This document shows, in pieces, positions 2,538 to 35,474 of a DNA stretch of 43,762 nt; position 1 is the stretch's first letter; every line of letters begins with the position of its first letter. This DNA is from an uncultured Lachnospiraceae bacterium. Lineage in GTDB: Bacteria; Bacillota; Clostridia; Lachnospirales; Lachnospiraceae. Where the stretch lies: assembly GCA_902781215.1 (NCBI GenBank), contig CACZIO010000021.1:1-43762 (forward strand), written 5' to 3'. Below the pieces are notes generated by a model. That model saw nothing but the letters and a program-made list of their open reading frames with translations, searched no databases and had not been told where the DNA came from. A program made the translations under genes and the position numbers.

Positions 2538-2550
2538 AGAGGAGACAAAA

Positions 2551-2847
2551 ATGCCGATTAACAAGAAACACGAAGATGGCAGATGGCTTTATACCGTATC
2601 CGGCAGGCTGGACGTGAACACATCTCCGGATCTTCAGAAGGATCTGGAAGAAAACATCACCGGCTCAGAGGATGTTGTTTTTGATTTCAGCGAGCTGAAA
2701 TTTATATCGTCTGCCGGTCTGAGAGTCCTGGTCTTTACAAAAAAGAAGCTGGGTGAAAACGGAAATGTGATCATTCAGGGCGCGAATGAGTTTGTCCTGG
2801 AGATCCTGGAAACGACAGGCCTGAGAAGCGTTTTTGATATCAGGTGA
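2551..2847 (+). CDS. STAS-domain anti-sigma factor antagonist (SpoIIAA/RsbV-like)
   Basis: The 98-residue protein is a single STAS domain. The conserved FISSAGLRVL loop places the serine that aligns with the phosphorylated serine of SpoIIAA at Ser54. Family members are phosphorylated by RsbW/SpoIIAB-type kinases and dephosphorylated by PP2C phosphatases, and bind their partner only when unphosphorylated. Both partner types are in this locus: the RsbW-like ATPase domain on the C-terminus of the MATE exporter (4810-6546) and the membrane PP2C phosphatase (33705-35474). The start is clear, with GAGAGGAG before ATG 2551. The link to those partners is inferred from gene content. No cognate sigma factor is recognisable in the unit. 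Confidence 0.9.
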   Translation: MPINKKHEDGRWLYTVSGRLDVNTSPDLQKDLEENITGSEDVVFDFSELKFISSAGLRVLVFTKKKLGENGNVIIQGANEFVLEILETTGLRSVFDIR

Positions 2848-2893
2848 ACCGGCGGATATGCCGGAATACCGCCTGGGAGGAGCACTGGTTAAC

Positions 2894-3133
2894 ATGAACA
2901 ATACGTTTATGGATGTTGTGAAATTCCTGCAGGATTTTGCAGAGTTTGATCCGGAAGATATTGATATGGCGAGCCGCATGAAGGAGGATCTGGGTCTCGA
3001 TTCTCTGACGCTGATCACGATGGTGGATGAAGCGGAACGCCGGTTCAATATTGTGATTCGGGACGAGCAGCTTATGTCAATCAGAACAATAGGGGATGTA
3101 GTAAGATCTATCGACGAACAGACCCGCTCTTGA
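2894..3133 (+). CDS. Free-standing acyl carrier protein
   Basis: The 79-residue acidic helical protein carries the phosphopantetheine site in DLGLDSLTLI (Ser37 from this start). This is the DSL motif of fatty acid and polyketide type ACPs, rather than the GGDS or GGHS motif of NRPS carrier domains. I chose ATG 2894 because GGGAGG (2875-2880) precedes it. An in-frame upstream ATG at 2858 would overrun that site, and the frame extends back to 2834. It sits between the STAS gene and an acyl-activating enzyme 12 bases downstream. The pairing is typical of loading systems in which an acyl-AMP ligase charges a dedicated ACP to start a lipopeptide. The acyl chain and the direct partner are inferred. 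Confidence 0.88.
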   Translation: MNNTFMDVVKFLQDFAEFDPEDIDMASRMKEDLGLDSLTLITMVDEAERRFNIVIRDEQLMSIRTIGDVVRSIDEQTRS

Positions 3134-3145
3134 GAGGAGTGTCCG

Positions 3146-4786
3146 ATGGAGAAGAAGTACTATTCCAAGATACCGAGAGAAAAGGGAGACTATCCCTTTT
3201 ACGATCTGATTTCGCTGTATGATTACAGACTCCGCACTGCCCCGGATGTACCGCTGTATACATTTACGGATTACCACACGGGCGTAAGGACTCAGATCAT
3301 GCCCGAAGAATTCGTTGCACAGTATCAGGCACTGGGAACGTGGCTTGCGGAGCAGCGGTATGAGAGAAAGCATATCGCCGTGATGGGGGACAGCTCCTAT
3401 GAATGGATCCGCACAATGCAGGCCGTGATCTGCAGCAATAATGTTCTGGTTGCGCTGGACAGAAACCTGGAGATCGGGACGCTTGTGGAGATGCTGAAGG
3501 CGAGCGATGCGGAGCTCCTGTTCTGCTCGGAAAAATATCGGGATAAGGCGGAAAAATTATCCGGAATTCTGGGGATAAAGGTGCTTATTCTCGAAGAAAA
3601 TGCCGGGAGAATAGAAGAGGGGAAAAAGCTTCAGGAAGCGGGAAAATGCGGCTGCATCCGTGAGAAGCTGGATCCTTACGCGCCGGCACTGCTTGTGTTT
3701 ACATCGGGCACCATGGGCAGCAGCAAATGCGTCATGCTGAGCCTTCGCAATCTTGTGACAAACACATTCTGCTGCTGGGAGCAGATGCGGCTGCATTACC
3801 ATATTGTATTCATTCTCCCGTTCCATCATGTGTACGGATTGAACATTGCCCATTTCCCCTATGTTCTTGACGGAAAGACGATCCACATCAATCAGAGTAT
3901 TAGGGATCTTTTCAGGGATATCCGGGCAGAGAATCCCGAAGTGATTGTAGGCGTTCCTTTATTCGTGGAACTCTTTTACAAGATGGTGTGGAAGGATATC
4001 CGGGAGAAGGGGCTGGAAGAAAAAGTCCTGTCGATGATCGAAGAGAACCGGAAGAATCCGGAACTTGCCATGGATGAAAAGCTGGAGATGTTCCGCTTTG
4101 CGACGGGGGTTCTGGGAAACCGGATCAAGGGACTGATCGTCGGCGGAGCGCCTATTTCCGATAAATATTACTACGGCTTCAGAGACCTCGGCCTGGATGT
4201 CAGCCAGGGATACGGTATTACCGAATGCTCTCCTCTGGTTGCGGCCACTTATCTGAACGCCAACAGGCCCGGCAGCGTGGGCAAGGTGCTGCAGGGGACG
4301 GAAATGATGATCGACCAGCCGAACGAGCATGGCGAAGGGGAAGTCTGCGTCAGGAGTCCCGGGGTGATGCTTGGCTATTACAAAGACGAGGAAGCCACCA
4401 GAGAGGTCATCTGGGACGGGTGGTTCCACACCGGAGACATCGGTTATATTGATGAAGACGACTATGTCTATCTCAGCGGGCGGATCAAGAATCTGATCAT
4501 TCTTGCCAACGGGGAAAATGTTTCGCCGGAGGAGATAGAGCTCCGGCTGATTGACCATCCTGCCATACAGGAGCTGGTCGTTTATGCGAAAGGGGACAGG
4601 ATCGCGGCGCAGATTTACGTTTCGCCCGATGCTCAGGAAGAGAATCCCCAGGAAGAGATACGCCGTTTTATTGAACAGTACAATGATTCCGCGCCTTCCT
4701 TTAAGCAGATTTCTGTCGTTGAATTCCGGAATAGTCCTTTTGAGAGGACGGCGAGCCAGAAAATTCTGCGGAATTCTCTTCAATAA
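3146..4786 (+). CDS. Acyl-activating AMP-dependent ligase (fatty acyl-CoA/ACP ligase type)
   Basis: This is an adenylate-forming enzyme of 546 residues, the usual family length. The motifs in order are the P-loop FTSGTMGSSK (about residue 184), GYGITECSP (about 355), the hinge motif YLSGRIKNLI followed by LANGENVSPEEIE (about 442-460), and a C-terminal TASQKILR segment holding the likely catalytic lysine. Overall it looks like long-chain acyl-CoA synthetases. Lying directly after a free ACP gene, with start GAGAGGAG before ATG 3146, it is the best candidate to activate a fatty or other carboxylic acid and load it on that ACP for N-acylation by the first condensation domain. Whether it transfers to CoA or to ACP cannot be decided by eye. 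Confidence 0.85.
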   Translation: MEKKYYSKIPREKGDYPFYDLISLYDYRLRTAPDVPLYTFTDYHTGVRTQIMPEEFVAQYQALGTWLAEQRYERKHIAVMGDSSYEWIRTMQAVICSNNVLVALDRNLEIGTLVEMLKASDAELLFCSEKYRDKAEKLSGILGIKVLILEENAGRIEEGKKLQEAGKCGCIREKLDPYAPALLVFTSGTMGSSKCVMLSLRNLVTNTFCCWEQMRLHYHIVFILPFHHVYGLNIAHFPYVLDGKTIHINQSIRDLFRDIRAENPEVIVGVPLFVELFYKMVWKDIREKGLEEKVLSMIEENRKNPELAMDEKLEMFRFATGVLGNRIKGLIVGGAPISDKYYYGFRDLGLDVSQGYGITECSPLVAATYLNANRPGSVGKVLQGTEMMIDQPNEHGEGEVCVRSPGVMLGYYKDEEATREVIWDGWFHTGDIGYIDEDDYVYLSGRIKNLIILANGENVSPEEIELRLIDHPAIQELVVYAKGDRIAAQIYVSPDAQEENPQEEIRRFIEQYNDSAPSFKQISVVEFRNSPFERTASQKILRNSLQ

Positions 4787-4809
4787 CCACGTTTGAAAGG
4801 AAATGAAAA

Positions 4810-6546
4810 ATGGTTCAGGAAAGAAATGACTATTTGATTTCCTCATCGATGAAGAAATACCTGATGGCAGCCATCGCTGCCATGCTGATCAATAATCTGA
4901 ATGCCATGATCGACGGCATTCTGATGGGACGTCTGCTGGGAAGCTCCGCGTTCTCCGCGGTGAACCTGTGCCTGCCGATGGTCGGCCTGATTACTGCCTG
5001 CGGCATGCTGTTTTATGTCGGGTCGGATGTGCTGGCTTCCATGGCCGCGGGCGCCAGAGAAGAGAGAAAAGCCTGCGTCATTTATACCGTCTCACTGATC
5101 AGCGTCGCGGTTTTAAGCATCGTCATCACGGCAGGATGCCTGAGCGGCCTGCCTGTGATCAGTTCTCTGATCTGCAGAGAAGAGGCGCTGCTTGGCTATG
5201 TGAGCGACTATCTGTCCGTCTGCTTTGCGGGCAGTTCCATCACCATGATTTCCGCAGCGCTGCTTTCCTTTGCACAGGTGGCGGGGAAGCCGTCGCTGGT
5301 TGCACATGCCAGTCTGGTTACTGTCTGTACGAATATCATCTGTGATATTCTGTATGTCGGGTTTTTCCGATTCGGAATCAGGGGCGCGGCGGCGGCTACG
5401 CTGACAGGGTCGCTGTTTGCCATTATTCTTATCCTGGCCGACAGTTTCCTCAAGGGCAGTCAGTTTCACTTTGTCAATCCCGGCAAAGAGTTCCTGCCGG
5501 TGTTAAAGGAGAATGTCCGCTATGGGTTTCCTCTGATGACGCAGTCTCTGGCTATTGTTGCCTATTCGTATCTCTGCAACATGTGCGCGCAGAAGTTCGG
5601 CGGGGTGAAAGGGGCCTTTGCCGTATCCATGCTCACCTATGCCACGATTCTCTGCCAGGGCGTGTCCGGCGGAATCGGCCAGTCCTTCAATGCGATCGGC
5701 GGAATGCTGAAAGGGCAGAAGGATGATGTGGGCGTCTATATGCTCTACAAAAAGGGGATCAGAATTGCTGCTGCGTTTTCCGCTGCCGTATGTGTGGTGA
5801 TTATGGCCGCGGCACCTCTGTTTGCACGCCTGATGGGAGCGGAGGACCAGGAGATCATCCGGTATTCGGCAAGGTCTCTGCGGATGGCGCTGCCGTTTGT
5901 GGTGCCGATCTGCATACTCTGGATCATGCCTGCCGTATATGCCCTGAGCGGCGAACTGAGCATACTGCCGGTGATCAGCTTCTCGCAGCCCGTTCTTACC
6001 GTGATCGGCCTTTACCTTTGCGGAACGCTGATCGGAAATGATTATATGTGGCTGGGCTATCCCGCGGCCGCTGTCCTCTGCTTTCTGATCCTTGTGATCA
6101 TCGTGGAAAAAAAGAGAAGCGGGGCGAAAGATAAGAGAGCTTTCCTGAGTCTGCTTCCCGTGGGTACCGCAGAAAAGAATGTATATGATATTTCTGTCAT
6201 ATGTGATCCCGGTATCCTTGGCGAGCAGATCAGGCAGCTGGATGCGTTTTTTGACCAGCAGGACATTGCGTATAAACAGGGATTACGGATCCGCCTCTGC
6301 ATGGAAGAGATGATGGCCAACATTATCGAGCATGCCGAGAGAAAAAAGAGTCAGTATTTTGATCTGAAGGTGGTTGTGGATGAGGAAAGTATTCTTGCGG
6401 TCATCAGGGATGACGGACAGCGGTTCGATCCTGTCCATGCCGAGAATATGGGTACCGGCCTGAAGATCGTAAAGAGTATGTGTAAGGATATCGACTACAC
6501 CTATGTCTATGGACTGAATATGGTATTCCTGAAATGGATGCGTTAA
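4810..6546 (+). CDS. MATE-family exporter fused to an RsbW-like HATPase domain
   Basis: Residues 1 to about 440 are strongly hydrophobic with about twelve likely membrane segments and the pattern of MATE multidrug exporters, including an early INNLNAMIDGILMG segment. Residues about 455-578 form a cytoplasmic histidine-kinase-type ATPase domain of the RsbW/SpoIIAB class. It has the N-box EEMMANIIEHA (about 498), G1-like DDGQRFDP (about 534) and G2-like GTGLKIVKSM (about 547). The N-box glutamate and asparagine that handle Mg-ATP are present. MATE pumps normally have no such domain and are about 450 residues. With the STAS protein upstream in the same unit and a PP2C phosphatase at the far end of the locus, the fusion suggests that export is tied to a phosphorylation switch. 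The likely cargo is the NRPS product. The frame is uninterrupted, so the fusion is not an assembly artefact within this sequence. Confidence 0.88.
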   Translation: MVQERNDYLISSSMKKYLMAAIAAMLINNLNAMIDGILMGRLLGSSAFSAVNLCLPMVGLITACGMLFYVGSDVLASMAAGAREERKACVIYTVSLISVAVLSIVITAGCLSGLPVISSLICREEALLGYVSDYLSVCFAGSSITMISAALLSFAQVAGKPSLVAHASLVTVCTNIICDILYVGFFRFGIRGAAAATLTGSLFAIILILADSFLKGSQFHFVNPGKEFLPVLKENVRYGFPLMTQSLAIVAYSYLCNMCAQKFGGVKGAFAVSMLTYATILCQGVSGGIGQSFNAIGGMLKGQKDDVGVYMLYKKGIRIAAAFSAAVCVVIMAAAPLFARLMGAEDQEIIRYSARSLRMALPFVVPICILWIMPAVYALSGELSILPVISFSQPVLTVIGLYLCGTLIGNDYMWLGYPAAAVLCFLILVIIVEKKRSGAKDKRAFLSLLPVGTAEKNVYDISVICDPGILGEQIRQLDAFFDQQDIAYKQGLRIRLCMEEMMANIIEHAERKKSQYFDLKVVVDEESILAVIRDDGQRFDPVHAENMGTGLKIVKSMCKDIDYTYVYGLNMVFLKWMR

Positions 6547-6638
6547 AACTACAGGATCAGGATTTAAAAGTATATTCCGGTGTGTGGTCTGCACGGAATA
6601 TGATTTTAAATAAATATCACTCAGAAAGGAGAACTATC

Positions 6639-6908
6639 ATGTCAACACAACAGACACCGGGTGCCGGTTATACCATGCCGACTCCTGACCAGCTGCCGAA
6701 GCTGAGACTCGTGACGCCCCTGTTTCCGGGGATGATCAAGCAACAGGAGCAGGCGCAGGAAGACGCTGCTCCGGAAAAAGAGATGCCATTACCGCAGACA
6801 CCTTATGCCTATGCACAGGGTATGCCGAATCAGACCGCGGCACCTCTGTATGCGGGAGCTCCCAATGCTCCTAAGGCAGAGGAAGAAGAGGAAGAAGAGG
6901 AAGAATAA
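6639..6908 (+). CDS. Small Pro/Gln-rich protein with a nine-glutamate tail, function unknown
   Basis: The protein has 89 residues and starts at ATG 6639, seven bases after AAAGGAG (6625-6631). Longer in-frame starts reach back into the MATE gene and have no such site. The sequence is low in complexity, with prolines throughout, a short PKLRLVTPLFPGMI core, TPYAYAQGMPNQ, and a tail of nine Glu encoded by three GAGGAAGAA units. I see no signal peptide, membrane segment or known domain. Proline/tyrosine/methionine-rich segments and an acidic end also appear in the next gene product (7124-9418). That suggests a shared interaction partner or assembly role, but no function can be assigned. It closes the first unit, just before a terminator. 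Confidence 0.75.
   Translation: MSTQQTPGAGYTMPTPDQLPKLRLVTPLFPGMIKQQEQAQEDAAPEKEMPLPQTPYAYAQGMPNQTAAPLYAGAPNAPKAEEEEEEEEE
6879..6905 (+). repeat. Nine-base tandem repeat encoding poly-glutamate
   Basis: Three perfect copies of GAGGAAGAA form the last nine sense codons of the small protein. Loss or gain of a unit would change tail length by three Glu without shifting the frame. Confidence 0.9.
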
Positions 6909-6978
6909 TTCCCGGGATGGCAGAAGCATGTCCGCTCAGAAAATGACCGGATCAACCGCTTGCTGAGGGACAGGGAAT

Positions 6979-7018
6979 GAGAGGCTGTCTTGCGGGCAGC
7001 CTCTCTTCTTGCTTCTTA
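6979..7018 (+). terminator. Intrinsic terminator ending the first unit
   Basis: The arms GAGAGGCTG (6979-6987) and CAGCCTCTC (6997-7005) pair exactly, with two further pairs inside. A T/C-rich tract with TTCTT and TTCTTATT follows. It separates the STAS-to-small-protein unit from the ligase/NRPS unit. The rest of the 6909-7123 gap shows no gene. A promoter for the second unit is expected in 7020-7100, but I see no clean -35/-10 pair. Confidence 0.8.
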
Positions 7019-7123
7019 TTCACGCACTTGTGTCTGACTTGATAATGATCTTCGGACATTCTGAGGAAAGAACAGGATTCACCGAAACACAAAAATAATC
7101 ATGACAGAGGAGATCAGAAGAAA

Positions 7124-9418
7124 ATGAGTTTGGATAAATTCGATCATGCGGCATTGCAGAAAAGCTGGAAGTATATCAGAGATCTGAATTCCGTAAGCAG
7201 GGAGCGCCTGGACCAGACGGCGCTGGTATCCATGAACAGGAGTTATACATACCGGCAGATGTTCCGAAACTGGGACAGGTATGCGGAAGTTTTTTCGGCG
7301 CTGGGGATTACGGGAGAGAACCATGCAAGGCTGGCTGTGTTTGACTGCGGCTGCGTGGAATCCTCGTTCGCATTCTATGCCGCAAATATGACAGGCGCTT
7401 CGGCGGCCGGCTATGCCCCCGGCTATCTCTCAGAGAAGTTTCCGCTGGACCGGGCGATCAAAACTGAAGGAATCACAGACCTTCTGATCAACGATGTGGT
7501 GATTAACGAAAAGCTCCTGACGCATGTTCTCAAGCTGAGAAAGGAACTGGGGCTTCGGAATATCATTGTTGTCCGGGTTCCTCTTGACGGCGACGGAATG
7601 GATCCTCAGCTGGTCAAAATGAGCAGGCAGAATTACCGCCGGTTAAAGAAAATGCCGGGCGTGGCATTCATGGACGATCTGATGAGTGCCTACGAGGCAA
7701 CGCCGATCCGCTATGGGAAAGAGGAGAATGATCCTCAGGCATTTATCCTTCATACCTCGGGCACGACAAAGGGGATCAGCAAACCGGTTCCCCTCTCGGA
7801 TTACGCCGTCAATATTGCCGCGGAGAGCATGAAGCAGTGTCCGGAATTTGAGCAGTTTAAGGTGGGGACGGTCTCGCTGTGCACCATGGTCGCGACGTCT
7901 GTCTACGGCTTCGTAAACCAGCTTCACGGCCCGCTCTCTTTCGGCTGCGAGGTGGTGGTCCCGCCGATGTCCAATACGAATCCGTGCTTTGTCAAGATGA
8001 TTTCGGATTATAAAGTGAATGTGCTCTTTATTACGCCCTATTACTTCGAGGCATGGAGCAAGATGCCGGAGGAACTGGTTCCCGACTTTTCCACGGTGAA
8101 CTGCGTGATCACGGGGGGCGCCTATCTTTCCGCGAAGGCAAGGAAAAGGTATATGGCTTTCATCAACGCCCACGGCGGAAACGATCCCATGTTCATCAAT
8201 GGATACGGCATGTCGGAGACCTGCGGCGCATGCATTATCCAGACGGGAGATGTGGAGGATGATTCCATTGGCTTCGCGCTTCCCGGCGTGAACATCCGGA
8301 TTTACGATGAGCTGGAGGAGAAGTTTTACGCTGTCGAGGACCGGCATACGGGTGTTCTCTACATCAATTCTGATTCCATCAGTATGGGAAAGATTGATGA
8401 TACCACCTATTTTGAACTGGAAGAGATTGACGGGCTTCCCTATATCTGCACAAATGATGTTGTGCAGGTAAATGAGGACGGAAGTCTGGCGTGCAAGGGA
8501 AGAGCAAACCGTTATTTCGTCAATAATGACGGGATCAAATTCAATGCGGGACTGATCGAGAATCTCGTGGCGGCACAGGACGGCATCGAAGCCTGCGCCA
8601 TGGTTCCCTGGTATGACAAAATTCTCACCCATGATACCGTGCCGGTTCTTTATGTCCAGACTCTTGAACGGAATCAGAACGACGTGGAAACGGTGCGAAA
8701 GGCCCTGGTGGAAGTATTTATCGGCCAGAAAAAGGCGGAGGAAACAAACCTTCCCATGCAGTGCGTGATCACGGGACAGATTCCGCGCAACGACAATGGA
8801 AAGGTCGATATTTACCGGATTACCACGGGGAAGGTGGAAGGCGCAAGGCACATCATCCGGCCGATCCGAAAAGACGGCGTGCTGCAGGATATCCGCCTCG
8901 AATTCGTGCCCGCGAGCAATAAGAGCATAATGAACGGTGCGGTTCCGGAAGAACTGGAACAGGTTTGGAAGGATATCCGTATGTCTGTGCGCGATGAAAC
9001 CGTGGTCAACCAGGCGGCCAACTCCCTGAGCGCCAAAATGATGGGCCCCATGGCCAATCCTTTTATTGCCCAGCAGATGGAGATACTGAAGCAGACCATG
9101 GCTGTTCTGCAGAATATTCATCAGCAGATGGTGCAGGCGGGAGCGCAGATCATGCAAAGCGCCATGAGCCAGTACAACGGAATGCTGTCAGGCATGACCG
9201 GTGCAGGCGGAGGCGCGCAGTTCCCGTATATGGGCCAGCCGCAGCCGACATCCCAGGCGCCGCAGCTCCCGTATATGGGCCAGCCGCAGCAGATGGCGCA
9301 GGCCCCGCAGTTCCCGTTCATGACGGCTTATATGCCGTGGGGTATGGCGCCGGCTGCGCCAAACGCAGAGGCGCAGGGGCCGGAAGAGCATCCGGAAAGG
9401 GAAGAAGATGATGAATAA
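7124..9418 (+). CDS. Adenylate-forming enzyme with a long helical, low-complexity C-terminal extension
   Basis: Residues 1 to about 575 are a complete AMP-binding enzyme: P-loop HTSGTTKG (about 209), YGMSETCG (about 361), KGRANRYFVNNDGIKF as the hinge region, and IPRNDNGKVDI (about 555) with the likely catalytic lysine. The last 190 residues are unusual. A helical stretch rich in Met and Gln (NPFIAQQMEILKQT and onward) is followed by near-repeats of PQxPYMGQPQ and an acidic end EEHPEREEDDE. Known acyl or aminoacyl ligases end near residue 550. The start is ATG 7124 with GAGGAG upstream. Its stop overlaps the start of the serine-hydrolase gene. It is paralogous to the inactive second half of the 30345-32786 product. 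It could activate an unusual acid or amino acid for the NRPS, and its substrate is unknown. Confidence 0.83.
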   Translation: MSLDKFDHAALQKSWKYIRDLNSVSRERLDQTALVSMNRSYTYRQMFRNWDRYAEVFSALGITGENHARLAVFDCGCVESSFAFYAANMTGASAAGYAPGYLSEKFPLDRAIKTEGITDLLINDVVINEKLLTHVLKLRKELGLRNIIVVRVPLDGDGMDPQLVKMSRQNYRRLKKMPGVAFMDDLMSAYEATPIRYGKEENDPQAFILHTSGTTKGISKPVPLSDYAVNIAAESMKQCPEFEQFKVGTVSLCTMVATSVYGFVNQLHGPLSFGCEVVVPPMSNTNPCFVKMISDYKVNVLFITPYYFEAWSKMPEELVPDFSTVNCVITGGAYLSAKARKRYMAFINAHGGNDPMFINGYGMSETCGACIIQTGDVEDDSIGFALPGVNIRIYDELEEKFYAVEDRHTGVLYINSDSISMGKIDDTTYFELEEIDGLPYICTNDVVQVNEDGSLACKGRANRYFVNNDGIKFNAGLIENLVAAQDGIEACAMVPWYDKILTHDTVPVLYVQTLERNQNDVETVRKALVEVFIGQKKAEETNLPMQCVITGQIPRNDNGKVDIYRITTGKVEGARHIIRPIRKDGVLQDIRLEFVPASNKSIMNGAVPEELEQVWKDIRMSVRDETVVNQAANSLSAKMMGPMANPFIAQQMEILKQTMAVLQNIHQQMVQAGAQIMQSAMSQYNGMLSGMTGAGGGAQFPYMGQPQPTSQAPQLPYMGQPQQMAQAPQFPFMTAYMPWGMAPAAPNAEAQGPEEHPEREEDDE

Positions 9419-11174
9419 ACACATCGCATTCGTGCGGTTTTTTGTGTGTTGTCTCCTGCTTTGCTTTCTCCTGTGCATCCCCGCTTACGGGGCGGAAAAC
9501 AGGCTTCCCTCCGGGATCGGATATGAGGAAATAGACGCTGCCATCCGGGACTATATCAAAGAACATGAAGCTTCGACGGCAGGGCTGGCGTGGTCGGTAT
9601 TTGATGAGAAAGAGGAGCTTTCCGCAGGTTTTTACGGCTATGAGGACAGGGAGAATCAACTTCCTGTTGATGAGGAGACCGTCTTTGAGTGGGGCTCCGG
9701 AACCAAGATTCTGGTATGGGTTTCCGTGATGCAGCTCTATGATGAGGGGCAGCTTGATCTGGAAGCGGATATCCGCACTTATCTGCCGGAGGGGTTCCTG
9801 TCAAATCTGCGGTACGATACCCCGGTGACCATGCTGCATCTCATGAATCATACAGCCGGCTTTCAGTATGGCCTGGCGGATGTGAATATTAAGCAGGCGG
9901 GGCTCTATGCCAATCTGGAGGAGGCGGTTTCGGCGCATAAGCCGGAACAGATTTATGAGCCGGGGACGATCACGGCTTACTCAAACTGGGGTACTTCGCT
10001 GGCAGCCTATATCGTGGAGAGGATCAGCGGAATGGAATTCGCGGATTATGTGCACGAGCATATTTTCGCGCCGCTTGGCATGGAGCGAAGCGCCCTGTAT
10101 ATGGATCTGTCCGATAACGGGTGGGTTCAGGAGAAAAGAAAAGAACTGCAGTGCTATACCTCCGAAGGTGAGCTGATGCAGGACAGCTTCGATTATATTA
10201 CCCTGTATCCCTCCGGGCGATGCGTGTCCACCTTCGGGGATTTCAAAGCGCTTGCCAGGGCTGTTCTGACGAAGGATCCCCGGATTATGAGTGCGGAAGC
10301 ATGGGATACCATGTTTTCCCCGTCGGATTATTTTGCGGGAACGGAGCTTCCCAAGAATTATCACGGTCTGTGGGCAGTCTATCTGGGGGTGCCTGCCATA
10401 GGACATATCGGAAGAACCGGGGGGTCTTCCTGCTATCTGCTGGTTGATCCCGAGCACGGTGTGGGATCTCTGTTCGCATGCAACCAGGGGGGAGATCTGG
10501 TTTATACAGAAGGCGTTCGCTCCTTGATCTACGGCGATTTTCAGTATGAGGATTTCGTCGAAGAACCTGCCATACCGGCAAAGACCTACAGGAATGCCAG
10601 TATTGATGCAAATGGCGCATTTAAGCTGATGGCGTACATCTCTGCGACGGGCGCGCCGCTCAATACGGCCGGACAGTACTATCAGGTTTCGCCCTTTGCT
10701 TCCCGGTCCAGGGTGGAATTTGCCTATATGGATTATCAGGAGATTCCGGATTCCCGGGTGCTTGCGGAATCCTTTACCATTTTATCCTATATAGCAGGTC
10801 TGGTTCTGCTGGCACTGAGCGTACCGGTCAGACTGGTGCTCGGCCTGATTGGGATGAGAAAAAGAAAAGAAGGGGGAAGAGAGCTTGTTCTGTGGAGCAT
10901 CATCGCAACCCTGCTGCCGTTTCTCGTCACCGCGTTTTATCTGTATGCAGGTGCTTCCGTGGCATTCCCCTCCACGAGATATGTATGGGCGTTTTGTGCC
11001 ATCGGCGTCATTGCTGTCTGCATGGCGGCCATGGCCGTCTATGGGATGATCAGGACGGTCAGAGGACGGTTTTCATGGAAGAAGAAAGCCTTTTACTATA
11101 TGATCGCCGCAATTCTGATCCTTTCGGTTGTCTATGTATGTTATTGGAATATGTTCATGTTCTGGAAGATCTAG
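9408..11174 (+). CDS. Membrane-anchored serine peptidase/hydrolase of the beta-lactamase fold (ClbP-like architecture)
   Basis: The product of about 588 residues has an N-terminal signal peptide (FFVCCLLLCFLLCIPAYG), an extracytoplasmic class C beta-lactamase/PBP4-type domain, and four C-terminal hydrophobic segments from about residue 455. Catalytic motifs are visible: SGTK with Ser97 and Lys100, YSN with Tyr191, and HIGRTGG near 333. The colibactin peptidase ClbP has the same layout, with Ser95, Lys98, Tyr186 and C-terminal membrane helices, although three rather than four. ClbP, ZmaM and XcnG remove an N-acyl-D-asparagine cap from exported NRPS prodrugs. Here the NRPS starts C-A-PCP-E, which would make an N-acyl-D-aminoacyl end, so the same job is plausible. 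General peptidoglycan-type or esterase function in this broad family is the alternative. The gene overlaps its upstream neighbour by 11 bases. Confidence 0.82.
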   Translation: MMNKHIAFVRFFVCCLLLCFLLCIPAYGAENRLPSGIGYEEIDAAIRDYIKEHEASTAGLAWSVFDEKEELSAGFYGYEDRENQLPVDEETVFEWGSGTKILVWVSVMQLYDEGQLDLEADIRTYLPEGFLSNLRYDTPVTMLHLMNHTAGFQYGLADVNIKQAGLYANLEEAVSAHKPEQIYEPGTITAYSNWGTSLAAYIVERISGMEFADYVHEHIFAPLGMERSALYMDLSDNGWVQEKRKELQCYTSEGELMQDSFDYITLYPSGRCVSTFGDFKALARAVLTKDPRIMSAEAWDTMFSPSDYFAGTELPKNYHGLWAVYLGVPAIGHIGRTGGSSCYLLVDPEHGVGSLFACNQGGDLVYTEGVRSLIYGDFQYEDFVEEPAIPAKTYRNASIDANGAFKLMAYISATGAPLNTAGQYYQVSPFASRSRVEFAYMDYQEIPDSRVLAESFTILSYIAGLVLLALSVPVRLVLGLIGMRKRKEGGRELVLWSIIATLLPFLVTAFYLYAGASVAFPSTRYVWAFCAIGVIAVCMAAMAVYGMIRTVRGRFSWKKKAFYYMIAAILILSVVYVCYWNMFMFWKI

Positions 11175-11214
11175 TGCATGGACTTTTGTGAATCATTGTG
11201 TATTAGTCTAGCAA

Positions 11215-11231
11215 CATATCATAATGATATG
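11215..11231. promoter_or_regulatory. Perfect 8-bp-arm palindrome directly before the NRPS ribosome site
   Basis: CATATCAT and ATGATATG flank a single A in the 74-base gap before the NRPS gene. The right arm abuts the ribosome site GGTGAGG (11231-11237). A regulator bound here, or a small hairpin, could influence NRPS expression separately from the upstream genes. TTGTGT at about 11197 with an AT-rich hexamer near 11217 could be an internal promoter. Confidence 0.5.
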
Positions 11232-11248
11232 GTGAGGTGTCGTTTTAT

Positions 11249-14200: not shown

Positions 14201-15540
14201 CCGGAAATCTCTCACGAACCATATGAAGGGCCGATACCGGACACGCCCATCATTGCCTTTTTTAAGGATCTGCATCTGCCGGAACCGGCATATTTTCACC
14301 AGAGCCGTCTGCTGGTATTAAGAGAGCGTGCAGAGATCGGCAGGCTTCAGAGAGCCTGGGATGCATGCGTTGCCCGGCATGATATGCTCCGGGCTGTTTA
14401 CGATTCCGAAAAAGAGACCCTCTTCGTCCGGGAGAGCCGCACGAAGCTTATCATTGAAGAAGCCCGCGTGGACGCAGATGCTGCGCTCACAGCTTTCTGT
14501 CTGCAGGTGAAGTCCCATCTTGTCATGGATGAAGCACTGGTGAGGGCTGTCCTGATCCATGGGGAGGAAAAAGATTACTTCCTGATTGTCGCGCACCATC
14601 TGGTGGTGGACGGGCTGTCCTGGCAGATTCTTCTGGAAGATCTTCGGAATGCATGGGAGCAGAGCGGGACTGAGGAAGAGATCCGACTTGCATCCGGCAC
14701 CAGCAGTTATTTTGACTATGCCAGGGTACTGAAAGAGTATCGCGACAGTTACAGACTCAGCCGTGAGATTCCCTACTGGAGAAGAACGGAAGAGAAGCTC
14801 CGCTCATTGCCGCTTTCCAGGGCAAAAGATTACAGCCGCAGCTTTGACCGTATTTCCCTGTCCATGGACGAAGAAAAAAGCGGCGAACTCGTGCATGCGG
14901 ATTTTGAAAAATGGCATGCGGATATCAATGATCTGCTGCTGACGGCAGTATGCAGCAGTTACGCCAGGGCGACGGGACATATTTCGGTATCTGTCCAGAT
15001 GGAAGGACACGGCCGGCAGGAGTTTGCTGAAAATCTTCATCTCGACAGGACCGTGGGATGGTTTACATCGGTTTATCCTGTTGTCATTGAAGACCTGTCC
15101 GGACAGATCGAAAAGGATTTTGTCACCGTAAAGGAAAGTCTGCACCGGGTTCCGGATAAAGGCGCGGGCTATTCTGTCCTGCGCTATCTGGCGGGGAAAA
15201 AAGAAGCTGCGCTTTCCTCGGAGAATGCGGCCCGTATCGGCTTCAATTATCTGGGCGACCTGGGCCGGAAGAGGGATGATGATTGGATCGAGGATATTAT
15301 CCTTGCCGGCGACGGCCGCATCGATACGGGATATGATGTCAGTCCGGCAAATGTGTTCGGACCGGATCTGTCCGTAAACTGTCTCGTTGAGGACGGCTGC
15401 TTTAAACTGCAGCTGGACTACAACACAGACATTTATGAGGAAGACACGGCCATCGAATTTGTACGGGGCATACCGGAGGAGATCCGCGCCCTTTGCAGGC
15501 TGATGCGGGAGAGCGCGCATGTTCCGGTCACCGCAACAGA
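11249..15540 (+). other. NRPS module 1: C-A-PCP-E (initiating, D-residue)
   Basis: The condensation domain (about residues 1-430, HHILMDG) is first in the only NRPS of the locus, so it probably acylates residue 1 using the free ACP. The adenylation domain (about 434-899) has pocket residues I read as D-G-D-T-M-G-G-V-C plus Lys. This is close to module 5 but matches no code I can name; the T/V/C pattern recalls aromatic-specific pockets, weakly. The PCP has LGGDSIKA. The epimerase (about 988-1428) shows HHLVVDG, EGHGRQEF, RTVGWFTS and NYLGDLG, all intact. Confidence 0.88.
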
Positions 15541-30352: not shown

Positions 30353-32786
30353 GAATAGTAAGGACTCTGCAATGGGATCGGTCAGGCGCGGCGCGATCCG
30401 CATTGGGCTGGAACTGATCCAGTCCCTCAGTTCAAAGCCTGTTGCTCCGTCCGTCAGAGATGATCTTGAGGGCAGGGTTCTGGAGAAACTGAACAATCCC
30501 TATATCAACAGGGAAGGCGTTCCCCTTGCCATGGATATTTTCAAGCCCATAGGGGAAGAATATGAAGGCCGGGAACTGCCGGTCATCGTTGCCATCCATG
30601 GCGGAGGGCTGGTGACCGGCGACAGGAAGATCTCACTGGATCTCTCCAGAGAGCTTGCACTGAGGGGATATCTGGTTTTTTCCATAGAATACAGGCTTTC
30701 CCCCAGGGCCAATGTCTGCGAGCAGTTTGACGATATCTGCGCCGGCATGGATCTTGTCGGGAGAAAGCTGATCGAGTATGAAGTGGATTATTCAAGGGTC
30801 TTTCTGACAGCGGACAGTGCGGGCGCATTTCTGGCGATCTATACCGCAGCCATGAAGAAATCCAGAAAGCTGCAGGATGCCATCGGGTATAAGCCCAGCC
30901 ACATGACCTTTAAGGCCATCGGTCTTTCCTGCGGGATGTTTTATACCAGCAGGGACGATATTCTGGGGGCGCTGCTGTCGGAGCAGTTTTACGGGGACAA
31001 AAAGGAGGATGCAGAGTTCCTTCAGTTCATGAATCCGGAACATCCGGAGATTATCAATAATCTCCCGCCCACCTTCCTTGTGACCAGTAAGGGTGATTTC
31101 CTGAACAGATACAGCATCATGTATGAGAAGGCCCTGAAAAAGGCAGGCAAGACAACCAAACTGCTTTATTACGGCGATGACGAACTGAAGCACACCTTTA
31201 ATTTCGCCCATCCTGACCTTCCCCAGAGCAAGGATGCCAACGATAAGATGCTCGCCTTCTTTGAGGAACAGGCGCAGATCCAGTATGCCAGGCAGACAGG
31301 CAGGGCGGAGCTGGCCAAAAAGACGGAGGCGATCGAGAGCAAGATCAAACGCGGCACCTATAAACAGCAGCGGCTCTGGAAAACGATCCGGGAGATGAAG
31401 TCACTGGATGAAGACTCCCTGAACAGCATTGCCATCAGAGATGAAGCCAGAAGCGTCACGTACCGGCAGATGTTCAGAAAATGGGACTGCTATGCGGAAG
31501 TCTTCTCCGGCCTTAAAATGACAGGAAGAAGCAATGCAAGGGTGGGAATCCCCGGCGCCATGACAAAGGAGGCCGTGTATGCCTTCTACGGTCTGAACAT
31601 GACGGGCGCGCTGGTTTCCATGCTTCCCTATGCGTATATGGAAGATGCGGAGCGTCTGGCAGAGGCGGTCAGAGAGGAAGAACTGACGGATCTTATCCTG
31701 ACAGATTATCAGGCCAGCCCTTCGTTCGTTAAGAAGCTGATGGAGCAGGAAACAGGTCTGCGCCGGGTGATCATTCTGACGACGGAGATGCGGAGAGCCG
31801 CTGTCCCGCAGGAAGAAATCACCAAAATCAAAAAGAGACGCTCCCTTCTGCAAAAGATACCGGGCGTCATGCTGATGAGCGATCTTCTGGTGGAATATGA
31901 AGCTTATCCGATTGTCTACGGCAGGGGCGGCGATGAAGCGGTCATTCTGCACAGAGAGAACGAAGGCCGTTATGAGCCGGTAGGATTTTCTGATGCGGTG
32001 ATCAATGCCGAGGTCTTTCGCGTGGCAGAGCTGTATGCGGAGAAAAGCAAGGACACGAATATACTGGTGGGCCTGAGTGCGGAGATCAGCAGTTCCTATG
32101 TGCTGGTCAATCAGGTGCAGATCACGTTCTTCATGGGCGAATGCCTCATGATTCCATACAGGACAGGATACAATAAGTCCTTCCTGTCGTTGGTCTGCAG
32201 GTACAATGTCAACGTGCTTGTGCTCTATGCTTCCCGGCTGCAGGCGCTGATCGATGCGGCCGGAAAGTCAGGACAGTGGTTTCAGGCATTGAACCAGGTC
32301 TTTCTTCTGGGAGATGATATTACCGGCGAGCAGATCGGAGCGTTCCAGACTTATTTTGAGGAACATGGAGGGGATCCCGGTATTGCTGTGATGTCTGTGA
32401 AAATGGAGGATTACACGCCCGGAATCCATGTCCCCGGGGAGCTTCAGGTGCCGGCAGAAAAAGCCGGCGGGCAGAAGAAACGCATCCGGACAATGGCTAT
32501 GCCCGGCACTCCGTATATGCCCGGCGTTGCGGCTCTTGGCGGAGAAGAAATGAAGAACCCTCTGGTGTGGGAGGACAAGATCGGCAACAGCCACGACATG
32601 AGGAAAATTTTTGTAAAGCTTGGAACAGCACTGAAAGTCGGCAGGGCAGAAGCGAAAAAACAGGGACCGGCAAAGGACGGTCCGAAGGGCGCAGAAGGCG
32701 ACGGAGAAGCAGCCAAGGAAAGAGTCATGAAAATGCTGGCGGTCATGTTTGATCCGTCGGATATTGACTATTACTATGAAGCCTAA
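30345..32786 (+). CDS. Alpha/beta hydrolase fused to a catalytically dead adenylation-like domain
   Basis: The product has 813 residues in three parts. The first 310 or so form an acetyl-esterase/HSL-type hydrolase: oxyanion HGGGLVTGD, nucleophile ADSAGA (Ser158), Asp in TSKGDFL and His in KHTFNF, so the triad looks complete. Residues about 330-740 are clearly paralogous to the ligase at 7124-9418: RQMFRKWDCYAEVFSGL against RQMFRNWDRYAEVFSAL, and QKIPGVMLMSDLL against KKMPGVAFMDDLM. The ATP-binding P-loop HTSGTTKG is replaced by HRENEGRY, and the YGMSET, hinge and catalytic-lysine motifs are absent. The tail has TPYMPG and a Lys/Glu-rich helix. The dead domain is probably a scaffold or regulator of its active paralog, which is inference. 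The ATG overlaps the NRPS stop by 8 bases, indicating translational coupling. Confidence 0.8.
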   Translation: MSKNSKDSAMGSVRRGAIRIGLELIQSLSSKPVAPSVRDDLEGRVLEKLNNPYINREGVPLAMDIFKPIGEEYEGRELPVIVAIHGGGLVTGDRKISLDLSRELALRGYLVFSIEYRLSPRANVCEQFDDICAGMDLVGRKLIEYEVDYSRVFLTADSAGAFLAIYTAAMKKSRKLQDAIGYKPSHMTFKAIGLSCGMFYTSRDDILGALLSEQFYGDKKEDAEFLQFMNPEHPEIINNLPPTFLVTSKGDFLNRYSIMYEKALKKAGKTTKLLYYGDDELKHTFNFAHPDLPQSKDANDKMLAFFEEQAQIQYARQTGRAELAKKTEAIESKIKRGTYKQQRLWKTIREMKSLDEDSLNSIAIRDEARSVTYRQMFRKWDCYAEVFSGLKMTGRSNARVGIPGAMTKEAVYAFYGLNMTGALVSMLPYAYMEDAERLAEAVREEELTDLILTDYQASPSFVKKLMEQETGLRRVIILTTEMRRAAVPQEEITKIKKRRSLLQKIPGVMLMSDLLVEYEAYPIVYGRGGDEAVILHRENEGRYEPVGFSDAVINAEVFRVAELYAEKSKDTNILVGLSAEISSSYVLVNQVQITFFMGECLMIPYRTGYNKSFLSLVCRYNVNVLVLYASRLQALIDAAGKSGQWFQALNQVFLLGDDITGEQIGAFQTYFEEHGGDPGIAVMSVKMEDYTPGIHVPGELQVPAEKAGGQKKRIRTMAMPGTPYMPGVAALGGEEMKNPLVWEDKIGNSHDMRKIFVKLGTALKVGRAEAKKQGPAKDGPKGAEGDGEAAKERVMKMLAVMFDPSDIDYYYEA

Positions 32787-33699
32787 AAAAACAATTCTTT
32801 ACAGATATGCAGAAAAAATGCAGAAGATGTCTGGCGAGTTCTACGACTCCATACAGATTCAGGTTCCGGATGAGCTGGAGGCAGATCTCGGTCTGCCTTA
32901 TTCCGGGGGAGATGGGAATGCGCTCTCCATGGACGTCTTCCGGCCGGCCGGCGAAAGGCCGGCCGGGCACTTTCTGCCGGTCATTATTATGATTCACGGC
33001 GGCGGGCTCTTTGTGGGAAATGCCAGAATGGAGGCAATGACCTGCATGCGCTTTGCCGGAAGAGGGTTTCTGGTTTTTTCTCTGTCCTATCGTCTACTGA
33101 CCGAGGCAGATGCCTGCGGGGAACTGTCTGATATCTGTGAGGGCTTCCGTCAGGTGGAAAAGCTTCTGCCTGACTACGGAGGCGACAGAGACCGGGTGTA
33201 TGTTGTGAGCGAAAGCGCAGGAGCCTATCTGGCCGTTTTTGCAAATGCCATGCACAGATCCTGGGCACTGTACGAGAAAGTAGGGGGGCGCCTGTCGAAC
33301 CTCCGCGTCCGTATGATGGCGTGCTTTTCCGGCATGTTCTATACGAAGAAGCTGGATTTGATCGGCATGGTTTATCCCAGACAGATCTATGGGGAAAAAC
33401 GATCCGACAAGGAATTTATGAAGATGATGAATCCGGAGCATTCCGAGATCATCGGGAATCTTCCGCCCATGCTGCTGGTAAGCAGCGATGAGGATTTTTT
33501 GAAAAAGTACACGCTGAAATACGAGAAGGCACTGAAAAAAGCAGGGATCCCCTGCCGGCTTTGGTACTATACGGACAATAAAGAATGTACGCATGCTTTC
33601 CCTTCCTTAAGGCCGGATCTTAAGGAAAGTCAGGAAGTCATCGATCAGATAGCGGATATATTTCTCGGATCCGGAGAAGATGACATCAGGCGGGAGTAA
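32776..33699 (+). CDS. Alpha/beta hydrolase (acetyl-esterase/HSL type), paralog of the preceding N-terminal domain
   Basis: The product of about 307 residues has HGGGLFVG, nucleophile SESAGA (Ser147), Asp in SSDEDFL and His in THAFPSL. It shares many stretches with the first domain of the upstream protein (CSGMFYT/CFSGMFYTKK, MNPEHPEIINNLPP/MNPEHSEIIGNLPP, YEKALKKAG), so the two arose by duplication. I chose ATG 32776, which overlaps the upstream stop by 11 bases; a TTG at 32749 is also in frame. No strong ribosome site is visible, so translation probably depends on coupling. The substrate is unknown: an ester or acyl group on the peptide product or its precursor is possible. Confidence 0.83.
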   Translation: MKPKKTILYRYAEKMQKMSGEFYDSIQIQVPDELEADLGLPYSGGDGNALSMDVFRPAGERPAGHFLPVIIMIHGGGLFVGNARMEAMTCMRFAGRGFLVFSLSYRLLTEADACGELSDICEGFRQVEKLLPDYGGDRDRVYVVSESAGAYLAVFANAMHRSWALYEKVGGRLSNLRVRMMACFSGMFYTKKLDLIGMVYPRQIYGEKRSDKEFMKMMNPEHSEIIGNLPPMLLVSSDEDFLKKYTLKYEKALKKAGIPCRLWYYTDNKECTHAFPSLRPDLKESQEVIDQIADIFLGSGEDDIRRE

Positions 33700-33704
33700 A
33701 GAAA

Positions 33705-35474
33705 ATGAAAAACAAAAGGAGCATAGTAAAAAGCGCAGCACTGATTTTTCTTGCTTCCATTCTTCTGACAATGCTGGTAGCTTTTCTTGTTTCACGGGTA
33801 ATTATTGACCAGCTGTATATTAATCAGAGATGGCTGGTATTTGAAGGCATATCCGAGAGCATTGAAGGTACGATCGATAATTATCCATCCCATGAATGGG
33901 TGTTTTCCTATCTTCTGGATCATCTGGACGATGAGCTCGACCTGGATTATGAGGAATGCGAAGAGGCAAGAGAAAAAGAAAGAGACTTTGTAAGCAGACA
34001 TAACAACCAGCCGCTGATCGGGTTCACACAGGAGCAGGTCGAGTCATTTTCGGAGGAAGATCAGAAACGTTTTGCGGAGCTCGTCTACAATCAGTGGATA
34101 GTTCGCATGAATGATCTTCTGCAGAGATTCGGATTCAGCTATCTGTCGATTTTTGCCTCGGATGATACGGCTGCAGAAAAGATTTTTCTCCTCAGTGCCA
34201 GCGACGGGCAGTGTGAGAGGGGCACAGGGAAAGACGACGCCTTTCTTTTTGCCACAAGAATGGAAAACGATGAACAGCAGAAGAGCGAGCTGCAGGTCAT
34301 TCTTTCGGGAGAGGATAAATACAGCCATTACGATGCAGCAGGGCATCTGAGCTTCTACAGCAAGATACTCCAGTCCGGGGACAAGTCCATCATTATTACC
34401 GGGACCACTTCCAATGCCGACACGGCTTCCAAAATGAACAGGGGCCTGGTGATCATCGTGGGCATCCTGGCCCTGCTGCAGGCGATCTCCGCTACACTCT
34501 GTATGGTGATGTTCTACCATTTTATCCTGAAGCCCATACGGAGTATGAGCAGAAGCGTCGTGGAGTATTCGCGTTCTAAAGAAACGGAGAAATCCAAAGA
34601 AGCGCTTTCACGCATCAGGAGCCGGAATGAGATCGGTGAACTGGCGGCAGACTTTTCGAATATGATCGACGAGGTGGATGCGCATATCAATGAAGTCCAA
34701 AGGATCACGGCAGAGAAAGAGCGCATCAATGCGGAGCTGAGTGTGGCAACCCGCGTGCAGGCCGGTCTGCTTCCCAGAACATTCCCGCCGTTTCCCGACA
34801 AAAAAGAATTTGATATCTACGCCAGCATGGATCCGGCCAAGGAAGTGGGAGGCGATTTCTATGACTTCTTTATGCCGGATGATAAGCACGTGGCTATGGT
34901 GATAGCGGATGTTTCCGACAAGGGAATTCCGGCCGCCATGTTTATGGCCACCTCCAAAGCCTTCATCAGGAACCGTACATTGATGGGCGGGAAACCATCT
35001 GAAATATTGTATGATGTCAATAACCAGCTTAGTGCGGATAATATGGGTGAGATGTTTGTCACGGTCTGGCTGGCAATCATTGATATCGAAACGGGACAGG
35101 GGCTGGAAGCAAACGCGGGACATGAGCATCCGGCGCTCAGAAGAGCCGGCGGAAGCTTTGAACTGATCAAATATCCTCATTCCCCCATGCTTGCGGTGAT
35201 GAAGGGGCTGAAATTCAGCGATCATGAATTTGTCCTGCATCCCGGAGACCGGCTTGTTGTATATACAGACGGCATTCCGGAAGCCACCGATCAGAACGAA
35301 GAACTTTACGGCTTCGTCAGAATGATGGAATCCTTCGACAGGAATAAGGATCTCACGCTCGAAGAGTTTCAGGCGGGTGTGAAGCGTGATATTGAAAGCT
35401 TCGTTGGCGAGGCAGAGCAGTTTGATGATATTACCATGCTGGTGTTTGATATGAAGGATAAGAATCAGAAATGA
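33705..35474 (+). CDS. Membrane sensor PP2C phosphatase (SpoIIE/RsbU type) with HAMP domain
   Basis: The product has 589 residues. A membrane helix (about 8-30) is followed by an extracytoplasmic sensor region of about 215 residues, a second helix (about 247-272), a HAMP linker, a coiled coil (about 320-350) and a PP2C phosphatase domain. Metal-binding motifs are present: KEVGGDFYDFF (about 381), ADVSDKGIPAAMFMA (about 401), YTDGIPEATD (about 520) and FDDITMLVF near the end. Such enzymes dephosphorylate STAS antagonists; the only STAS protein in sight is at 2551-2847. It starts five bases after the upstream hydrolase and ends the unit before a terminator. It is the natural signal input of the locus, but the sensor region matches no ligand domain I recognise. 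Confidence 0.9.
   Translation: MKNKRSIVKSAALIFLASILLTMLVAFLVSRVIIDQLYINQRWLVFEGISESIEGTIDNYPSHEWVFSYLLDHLDDELDLDYEECEEAREKERDFVSRHNNQPLIGFTQEQVESFSEEDQKRFAELVYNQWIVRMNDLLQRFGFSYLSIFASDDTAAEKIFLLSASDGQCERGTGKDDAFLFATRMENDEQQKSELQVILSGEDKYSHYDAAGHLSFYSKILQSGDKSIIITGTTSNADTASKMNRGLVIIVGILALLQAISATLCMVMFYHFILKPIRSMSRSVVEYSRSKETEKSKEALSRIRSRNEIGELAADFSNMIDEVDAHINEVQRITAEKERINAELSVATRVQAGLLPRTFPPFPDKKEFDIYASMDPAKEVGGDFYDFFMPDDKHVAMVIADVSDKGIPAAMFMATSKAFIRNRTLMGGKPSEILYDVNNQLSADNMGEMFVTVWLAIIDIETGQGLEANAGHEHPALRRAGGSFELIKYPHSPMLAVMKGLKFSDHEFVLHPGDRLVVYTDGIPEATDQNEELYGFVRMMESFDRNKDLTLEEFQAGVKRDIESFVGEAEQFDDITMLVFDMKDKNQK

Follow-up and report, generated by a model that had tools for sequence, protein, structure and literature searches.

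The RsbU-RsbV-RsbW and SpoIIE-SpoIIAA-SpoIIAB partner switches resemble the locus analysed here in their STAS protein with a conserved Ser, their HATPase_c_2 domain with N and G1 boxes and their SpoIIE-type phosphatase, but in our locus the HATPase is carried on a MATE exporter and no group-3 sigma factor is present. ClbM-type MATE exporters transport NRPS/PKS products; our protein shares the MATE fold and also lies among NRPS genes, a neighbourhood that suggests an export role, and unlike them it carries an extra C-terminal HATPase.

Partner switches with other outputs have been described, in sources of which part was available to us. In Pseudomonas SiaABCD the output is not a sigma factor but the diguanylate cyclase SiaD, which SiaC activates by binding to it. 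A SpoIIE-type phosphatase is common to SiaABCD and the window (the whole stretch of 43,762 nucleotides analysed), for which we likewise propose an enzyme or membrane function as output rather than a sigma factor; unlike SiaABCD, the window has the kinase on an exporter, and a Pfam scan of its cluster genes detected no GGDEF domain or diguanylate cyclase. Bordetella BtrU/BtrV/BtrW is linked to type III secretion (PMC8256260) and is thus similar to the window, as proposed, in joining a partner switch to secretion, while the secretion system differs and the available part of that source mentions no transporter fusion.

In Methanobrevibacter ruminantium M1, the genes mru0066-0071 comprise NRPS with serine phosphatases, an anti-sigma antagonist and MatE, and a second cluster, mru0513-0516, includes a PPTase, an anti-sigma antagonist, a phosphatase and a kinase (Leahy 2010). 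The initial annotation of our locus had pointed to such a report, and the part of Leahy 2010 available to us bears it out. The M1 loci are archaeal, were read as expression control and are likened to the window by their description, in which no kinase-MatE fusion is mentioned. A survey, as far as its available part goes, speaks for a bacterial origin of archaeal NRPS (PMC8241843). The literature searched, partly seen as excerpts and with subscription papers outside its scope, yielded no description of a MATE-HATPase fusion.

Organization of the NRPS locus

The host is probably a bacterium of a gut-dwelling family. The STAS protein, the HATPase domain and the SpoIIE-type phosphatase, which the initial annotation had placed around the NRPS genes, were each confirmed by Pfam (Table 1). 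Intergenic distances across 1716-35474 range from -38 to +62 bp, with the sole exception of 215 bp between 6908 and 7124. Since this gap holds a strong hairpin, the two transcription units that had been assumed are plausible (1716-6908 and 7124-35474). The first alpha/beta hydrolase gene probably belongs to unit 1, because only 13 bp separate its end from the STAS start. The promoter-like element 5' of it came from consensus scans whose upstream yields were close to those of shuffles (promoters, 11 vs 9.3; terminators, 10 vs 8.6). The last ORF of unit 1 gave no match in a Pfam scan at 0.01.

Table 1. Features of the window.
Feature	Position	Strand	Evidence or remark
4'-Phosphopantetheinyl transferase gene	706-1407	-	PF01648, 7.7e-13
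Promoter-like element	1627-1655		Consensus scan, 11/12 matches
Alpha/beta hydrolase gene, probable first of unit 1	1716-2537	+	Pfam Abhydrolase_1
STAS-domain protein, anti-sigma-antagonist type	2551-2847	+	PF01740, E=1.4e-15
Codon of predicted phospho-acceptor Ser54	2710-2712		Second Ser of FISSAGL
Acyl/peptidyl carrier protein	2834-3133	+	PF00550, 5.9e-11
Acyl-AMP ligase, probable fatty-acyl starter	3146-4786	+	PF00501, 1.8e-49
MATE exporter with C-terminal HATPase_c_2	4810-6546	+	PF01554, PF13581
HATPase_c_2 domain, residues 474-576	6229-6537		PF13581, E=8.8e-12, above cut-off
Small Pro/Gln- and Glu-rich ORF, final gene of unit 1	6534-6908	+
Terminator-like hairpin between units	6979-7005	+	dG -25.5, z -4.5
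ANL-family adenylating enzyme, low-complexity C-terminus	7124-9418	+	PF00501, 3.4e-38
Beta-lactamase-fold serine hydrolase	9408-11174	+	PF00144, 2.6e-47
Five-module NRPS, 6371 aa	11237-30352	+
Alpha/beta hydrolase fused to partial adenylation domain	30345-32786	+
Alpha/beta hydrolase	32749-33699	+
Membrane SpoIIE-type (PP2C) phosphatase, HAMP-like linker	33705-35474	+	PF07228, E=1.1e-43
Phosphatase catalytic domain	34878-35453
Terminator-like hairpin 3' of phosphatase gene, approximate limits	35516-35564	+	dG -25.5, z -5.0
Truncated ECF-like ORF, 144 aa	36455-36889		Sigma70_r2, without region-4 match

The STAS protein also matched TIGR00377 above the cut-off of that model. Its Ser54, presumably phosphorylated as judged by homology, has an equivalent in all 58 STAS domains of the loci collected. 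In the HATPase domain of the exporter (E499, E500, N504, D534, G536, G550 and N570) the N and G1 boxes are intact (E500, N504, D534 and G536). An AF2 model of the protein had a pLDDT of 88.3 and a pTM of 0.87, and the fold match to 4z3n spanned roughly the MATE part alone. The HATPase profile matched the RsbW and SpoIIAB structures weakly (E 0.004-0.02), with the histidine kinase VraS scoring equal to RsbW, and a sequence search of PDB restricted to the HATPase part retrieved no HATPase. The phosphatase has hydrophobic segments at residues 11-29 and 248-266 and a HAMP match below cut-off; its best NCBIfam match was SiaA, far below cut-off.

The NRPS was read as C-A-T-E-C-A-T-C-A-T-C-A-T-C-A-T-E followed by a C-like remnant and TE, with seven HHxxxDG, five YTSGSTG and one GYSFGG motifs and five carrier serines; the E domains are putative assignments by motif. 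In NCBIfam the acyl-AMP ligase scored best, though under the cut-off, against a subfamily of long-chain acyl-CoA ligases. By hydropathy, the serine hydrolase has one N-terminal and four C-terminal hydrophobic segments, the latter presumably fitting ClbP. A ClbP-like role was considered and dropped, as no ClbP-named entry was among its 15 PDB matches at 1e-10.

Recurrence of the MATE-HATPase fusion

Two sets of fusions were collected. The less biased one, found without an NRPS-biased query, holds 44 MATE-HATPase genes in 40 loci, the window included; L206 was entered on its length, having no HATPase match, and one copy in L200 is partial. Of the probable fusions, G012:C1 and several long HATPase frames were left aside. 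Within 10 kb, STAS was found for 15 of these genes, PP2C for 14 and NRPS for 13, and STAS and/or PP2C for 20 of 44. None of 20 plain-MATE controls had STAS, PP2C, HATPase or NRPS (A plus T or C) within 10 kb (Fisher p=1e-4 for STAS and/or PP2C, relatedness ignored); one control locus, L207, had a lone condensation-domain ORF. The second scan used profile A2, built from five NRPS-adjacent fusions, so NRPS frequency in its loci is biased. It detected 229 relatives; among the 80 fusions of the best 79 loci, an NRPS lay within 10 kb in 73 cases, STAS in 40 and PP2C in 18. The association with NRPS genes, suspected at the outset to be recurrent, is supported. STAS and fusion were on one strand in 56 of 58 pairs.

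The window fusion is 19-26% identical to the other aligned fusions. No ortholog was seen among 36 other genomes of its genus, three of which carry fusions 23-26% identical to it (E<=1e-30), one with an internal stop. Plasmid copies were not found at E<=1e-15.

Condensation-fused STAS domains and degenerate HATPases

A STAS domain fused to an NRPS condensation domain was found in 21 places in 20 of the 121 genomes searched, within one family of the phylum, and was Pfam-scanned and confirmed in one case. At 20 of the 21 places a MATE-HATPase lies on the same strand, with no intervening ORF in 14 and one NRPS ORF in six; the sole exception is on a 7.5-kb contig. The window STAS is a free protein, unlike these condensation-fused relatives. 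The STAS-condensation loci are relatives of one another.

Ten MATE-fused HATPases lack both the N504 and the D534 equivalents, and one of them, L166, retained the fold when modelled. PP2C was nearby for 9/10 of these degenerate fusions vs 21/103 intact ones, and a separate HATPase for 7/10 vs 21/103, a pattern that a STAS-receiving role of the MATE-borne domain would predict. Since the degenerate fusions are essentially one clade plus L064 (two changes on a tree of 94 of 124 rows, with 29 near-identical, partial or odd loci and, by length, one partial copy left out), the 9/10 count is not independent, and a loss of kinase residues independent of phylogeny was unsupported. Across 33 loci, each having a single STAS and intact motifs and chosen with 11 named loci removed by hand, STAS and HATPase distances correlated (r=0.58); co-evolution beyond the MATE part was unsupported (partial r=-0.05, p=0.75). 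HATPase matches also fell on an SDF transporter in L123 (HATPase_c_2, below Pfam cut-off) and marginally on an ABC ATPase of the same locus, and some phosphatases, as in L142, include a HATPase of their own.

Output of the switch

We favour, with modest confidence, an output on the exporter and the assembly line instead of a sigma factor, by which the switch would probably tie peptide making to export. The membrane phosphatase would sense a signal and dephosphorylate STAS at Ser54, and the unphosphorylated STAS would bind the HATPase domain hanging from the MATE exporter. This docking may gate the exporter and/or recruit the synthetase, so that the peptide, probably N-acylated, would leave the cell during synthesis, until the window HATPase, its motifs intact, phosphorylates STAS and ends the interaction. 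The proposal draws on observed genes, domains, motifs, recurrence and complementary fusions. Less favourable to it are the kinship among the degenerate fusions and among the STAS-condensation loci, the missing co-evolution signal beyond the MATE part, the fusions that have neither STAS nor PP2C close by, the free STAS and divergent fusion of the window, the poor specificity of the structural matches of its HATPase and the ECF-type genes near three fusions. For this locus, control at the level of export or of enzyme assembly, and not of transcription, had already been suggested as a possibility; the STAS-condensation fusions beside MATE-HATPases lend that suggestion indirect support, at the level of gene architecture. 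More tentatively, STAS and HATPase may form a phospho-switchable docking module in which a sensor phosphatase times the plugging of a synthetase into a pump, HATPase_c_2 domains being general STAS receivers on transporters. The HATPase of such a module would sit on MATE, also on SDF and perhaps on ABC proteins, STAS would be free or on the condensing enzyme, and some transporter HATPase_c_2 domains may be pseudokinases.

If true, a partner switch would exert direct post-translational control over a natural-product pump and its assembly line, and would do so in a protein family found repeatedly among gut and rumen bacteria. It would also explain 'anti-sigma' genes without an obvious sigma in such NRPS loci, including those of a methane-producing archaeon, and offer a handle to turn on silent clusters. 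The STAS-condensation fusions put the idea within reach of two purified proteins.

It is unlikely that the HATPase is instead a membrane-tethered anti-sigma holding a sigma factor encoded elsewhere, with release by STAS turning on the NRPS operon. Anti-sigma/antagonist pairs are built from domains of these types, and regulation of NRPS expression was proposed for Methanobrevibacter (Leahy 2010, available part). Against this, no sigma factor was found within 2551-35474, in agreement with the earlier description of a complete set without one in either transcription unit, and the window contig gave no Sigma70_r3 (group-3 type) match. The two Sigma70_r3 matches of its own genome, an RpoD-like one and a weak one of 259 aa, sit on other contigs, and the closest such match seen in 20 fusion-carrying genomes was ~25 kb from a fusion (by eye, with short contigs limiting). 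Among the matches listed, three fusions (L074, L191 and L192) do have Sigma70_r2 (ECF-type) genes at a distance of ~3-4 kb, and the truncated ECF-like ORF lies 980 bp downstream of the phosphatase gene, though past a terminator-like hairpin and so outside the set; to our knowledge, ECF sigmas are not usual clients of RsbW-type kinases. A sigma output would also leave unexplained STAS on a condensation enzyme and the HATPase match on another transporter.

Quite unlikely, in our view, is that the MATE part acts as sensor, its flux or substrate occupancy setting the kinase domain and STAS relaying product feedback to the synthetase. The same anatomy would serve, and STAS on an enzyme suits a pump-to-enzyme signal, but fusions that lost kinase residues would have little to signal with, and a separate membrane phosphatase already provides input. 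That the fusion serves just to tether a STAS kinase to the membrane near the phosphatase, leaving export unregulated while STAS acts on the NRPS or on some unrelated target, appears very unlikely: the phosphatase, too, is a membrane protein and the HATPase-bearing phosphatase of L142 suggests that kinase placement matters, yet degenerate MATE-HATPases would be poor kinases and the modelled one retains its fold. A chance neighbourhood of unrelated genes is hardly conceivable, for although STAS and PP2C are both missing from the 10-kb surroundings of 24/44 fusions, the other 20 stand against 0/20 controls and a MATE-HATPase accompanies nearly every STAS-condensation fusion.

Switch proteins and gene cluster of the window

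The initial annotation had placed a STAS antagonist, a HATPase-bearing gene and a phosphatase around the NRPS genes, and Pfam and sequence bore out all three positions. The HATPase domain has the N box (E500, N504), G1 (D534, G536) and the G2 glycine (G550), and the metal-binding motifs of the SpoIIE domain are in place. Behind STAS come the genes of a carrier protein and an acyl-AMP ligase, then the MATE-HATPase and a small ORF; a second adenylating enzyme and a beta-lactamase-fold hydrolase precede the NRPS, and two hydrolases separate it from the phosphatase. The spacing of the genes and the hairpins point to two transcription units. In the NRPS (6371 aa) there are five A motifs and as many carrier serines, one thioesterase motif, and seven HHxxxDG motifs, of which two are followed by SW, as in epimerisation domains. 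This motif count, together with the ACP-ligase pair and the leading condensation domain, suggests an N-acyl pentapeptide as product. The beta-lactamase-fold hydrolase, which shares its cluster with a MATE exporter and with an NRPS that has an epimerisation-like domain early on, resembles ClbP-type prodrug peptidases and could act in prodrug activation. Low-complexity Pro/Gln-rich repeats and a poly-Glu tail were seen in the 6534-6908 ORF, the C-terminus of 7124-9418 and the gene at 5722 of locus L079.

Switch proteins and the putative prodrug hydrolase in the window
Feature	Position	Composition
STAS	2551-2847	Ser54 within FISSAGL
MATE-HATPase	4810-6546 (+)	final ~105 residues are HATPase_c_2
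SpoIIE phosphatase	33705 (gene)	two hydrophobic segments, SpoIIE domain, HAMP match below cut-off
beta-lactamase-fold serine hydrolase	9408-11174	one N-terminal and four C-terminal hydrophobic segments

AlphaFold models of the window fusion (mean pLDDT 88.3) and the degenerate fusion of locus L166 (87.1) appear on reading to have the GHKL strand-helix order on a MATE fold. The best 50 PDB matches to the window model were MATE/MOP transporters, ClbM included. The C-terminal part of the profile gave weak PDB matches to VraS (E 0.0031), RsbW 6m36 (E 0.0036) and SpoIIAB (E about 0.02), and the HATPase part searched as a single sequence found no HATPase there.

Recurrence of the fusion and its neighbours

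The window protein matched at 1e-20 in 56/200 family genomes, full-length fusions being a minority of them, and, when 398 phylum genomes were searched with a profile, the matches listed included full-length fusions from G000, G341, G333, G214, G228, G444, G470 and G515. The supposed association of STAS, MATE-HATPase and PP2C with NRPS genes does recur. Within 10 kb of 44 fusion genes (40 loci) retrieved without an NRPS-biased query, STAS was found for 15, PP2C for 14, either for 20, both for nine, a separate HATPase for nine and NRPS for 13. The window scored as STAS and NRPS only, because its phosphatase lies 27 kb away behind the NRPS. None of these four was found within 10 kb at 20 plain MATE control loci, one of which (L207) has a lone condensation-domain ORF; Fisher tests, with relatedness ignored, gave p values of 1e-4 (STAS or PP2C) and 0.006 (NRPS).

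When five NRPS-adjacent fusions served as the query for a collection scan, the best 79 of 229 relatives (79 loci, 80 fusions) gave NRPS for 73, a count biased by the query, STAS for 40, PPTase for 29 and PP2C for 18, with many loci cut by contig ends. Taxa include Lachnospiraceae, Ruminococcus/Oscillospiraceae, Acholeplasmatales, Erysipelotrichaceae, Christensenellaceae, Clostridiaceae and one Riflebacteria record. Two gene orders were repeated: PP2C-HATPase, STAS, NRPS, MATE-HATPase (L140, L142, L143) and STAS, NRPS, MATE-HATPase, PP2C-HATPase (L172, L174, L185, L188). NRPS adjacency changed at least 17 times on a tree of 94 fusions. Neighbours other than NRPS include, in some MATE-HATPase/PP2C loci, GH3-type acyl-amido synthetase genes (L068:6920 and L194:4283 by profile, L061:7123 and L076:7115 by eye), which suggests an acyl-amino-acid cargo.

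The source assembly (3.33 Mb; the window is its contig C21) encodes two further MATE-HATPases, on C30 and C87, and a free HATPase-STAS pair on C1, with four STAS matches and four SpoIIE matches, one of the SpoIIE matches partial, in all. Fusions 23-26% identical were detected at E<=1e-30 in 3/36 other genomes of the genus; one (L271) adjoins PP2C-HATPase and STAS, another (L272) adjoins PP2C, and at L270:9662-11440 the MATE-HATPase gene is broken by an internal stop codon.

Domain fusions and loss of kinase residues

Locus L197 encodes a 530-aa STAS-condensation protein (Pfam STAS 8.5e-13, Condensation 7e-37), which matched at 1e-20 in 36 of 121 genomes of family f39. Near-full-length matches occupied 21 places in 20 genomes, all fetched (L197, L250-L269), the remaining matches covering the condensation part alone. 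All 21 keep the second STAS serine, and their condensation domains have YHxxMDG or a motif close to it, in which the second His is retained. A same-strand MATE-HATPase lies at 20/21 of these related, hence not independent, loci, with no ORF >=90 aa between the two genes in 14 and one NRPS ORF in six; the one locus lacking it, L253, is a contig of 7.5 kb. Since the query was the STAS-condensation protein, the search did not select for this neighbour except at L197, without which the count is 19/20. PP2C is present in 12/21. Only three of these 20 MATE-HATPases have Asn at the N504 position and 19 have Asp at the D534 position, the alignment being uncertain there.

Of 124 fusions, 103 have Asn at the N504 position and 113 have Asp at the D534 position; both were lost in ten, one in nine, and two were not scorable. 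Within 10 kb of the ten, PP2C occurs in 9/10 and a separate HATPase in 7/10, versus 21/103 for each beside fusions with both residues. Because the ten form one clade plus L064, the double loss counts as a single evolutionary event, or two at the most. The second STAS serine was kept in 58/58 STAS domains of the loci covered by that count.

HATPase-like domains, some of them weakly supported, are also joined to SDF symporters or ABC ATPases close to these switch genes. Locus L123 (at 7101-9881), with PP2C, STAS, MATE-HATPase and NRPS, has a HATPase_c_2 match below cut-off (E 1.4e-5) at the N-terminus of an SDF symporter; an ABC ATPase encoded there has a HATPase match at its C-terminus that is marginal (E 0.0095). 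In a similar ABC ATPase (L163:16430-17578) the HATPase was seen by our own profile, not by Pfam, and an SDF protein (L074:10922-12514) has a HATPase-like N-terminus by eye only. The MATE-HATPase on C30 directly adjoins a STAS-APH fusion; such APH-fold fusions adjoin MATE-HATPase and an HD-CE domain at L054:8067-12217 (the C30 locus) and L202:6777-10666; in the latter the MATE-HATPase and HD-CE form one fusion protein. Neither stretch fetched contained an NRPS, and YfhO and glycosyltransferase genes lie near L054.

Proposed output of the switch

The simplest common reading, in which we infer every functional step, is that STAS-HATPase binding would join or gate pump and synthetase, under the control of STAS phosphorylation. 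It is drawn from the HATPase on the pump, the STAS on the enzyme in relatives, the phosphatase and sometimes a separate kinase alongside, and the loss of kinase residues on some pumps. As its kinase residues are intact and a scan of the window found no second HATPase, the window MATE-HATPase would be receiver and kinase at once. SiaC-SiaD and Btr (PMC8256260) offer precedents for a non-sigma output, and no description of the MATE-HATPase fusion was found in the literature searched.

Control of transcription is a rival, and the rival explanations need not strictly exclude one another. The NRPS neighbourhood mentioned for a rumen methanogen in the initial annotation is indeed reported by Leahy 2010, which proposes expression control for it; a rumen survey (PMC8241843) favours bacteria-to-archaea transfer of archaeal NRPS. 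The claim that the window set is without a sigma factor stands for the set itself, and a truncated ECF-like ORF (36455-36889, Sigma70_r2 only) lies downstream, outside it. In the source genome Sigma70_r3 matches one RpoD-like gene and, weakly, one of 259 aa; neither is on the window contig. Across 20 fusion genomes the Sigma70_r3 nearest any fusion is about 25 kb away (G470:C4) and the next about 33 kb (G056:C38), judged by eye and limited by short contigs. Sigma70_r2 lies about 3-4 kb from fusions in at least three loci (L074, L191, L192).
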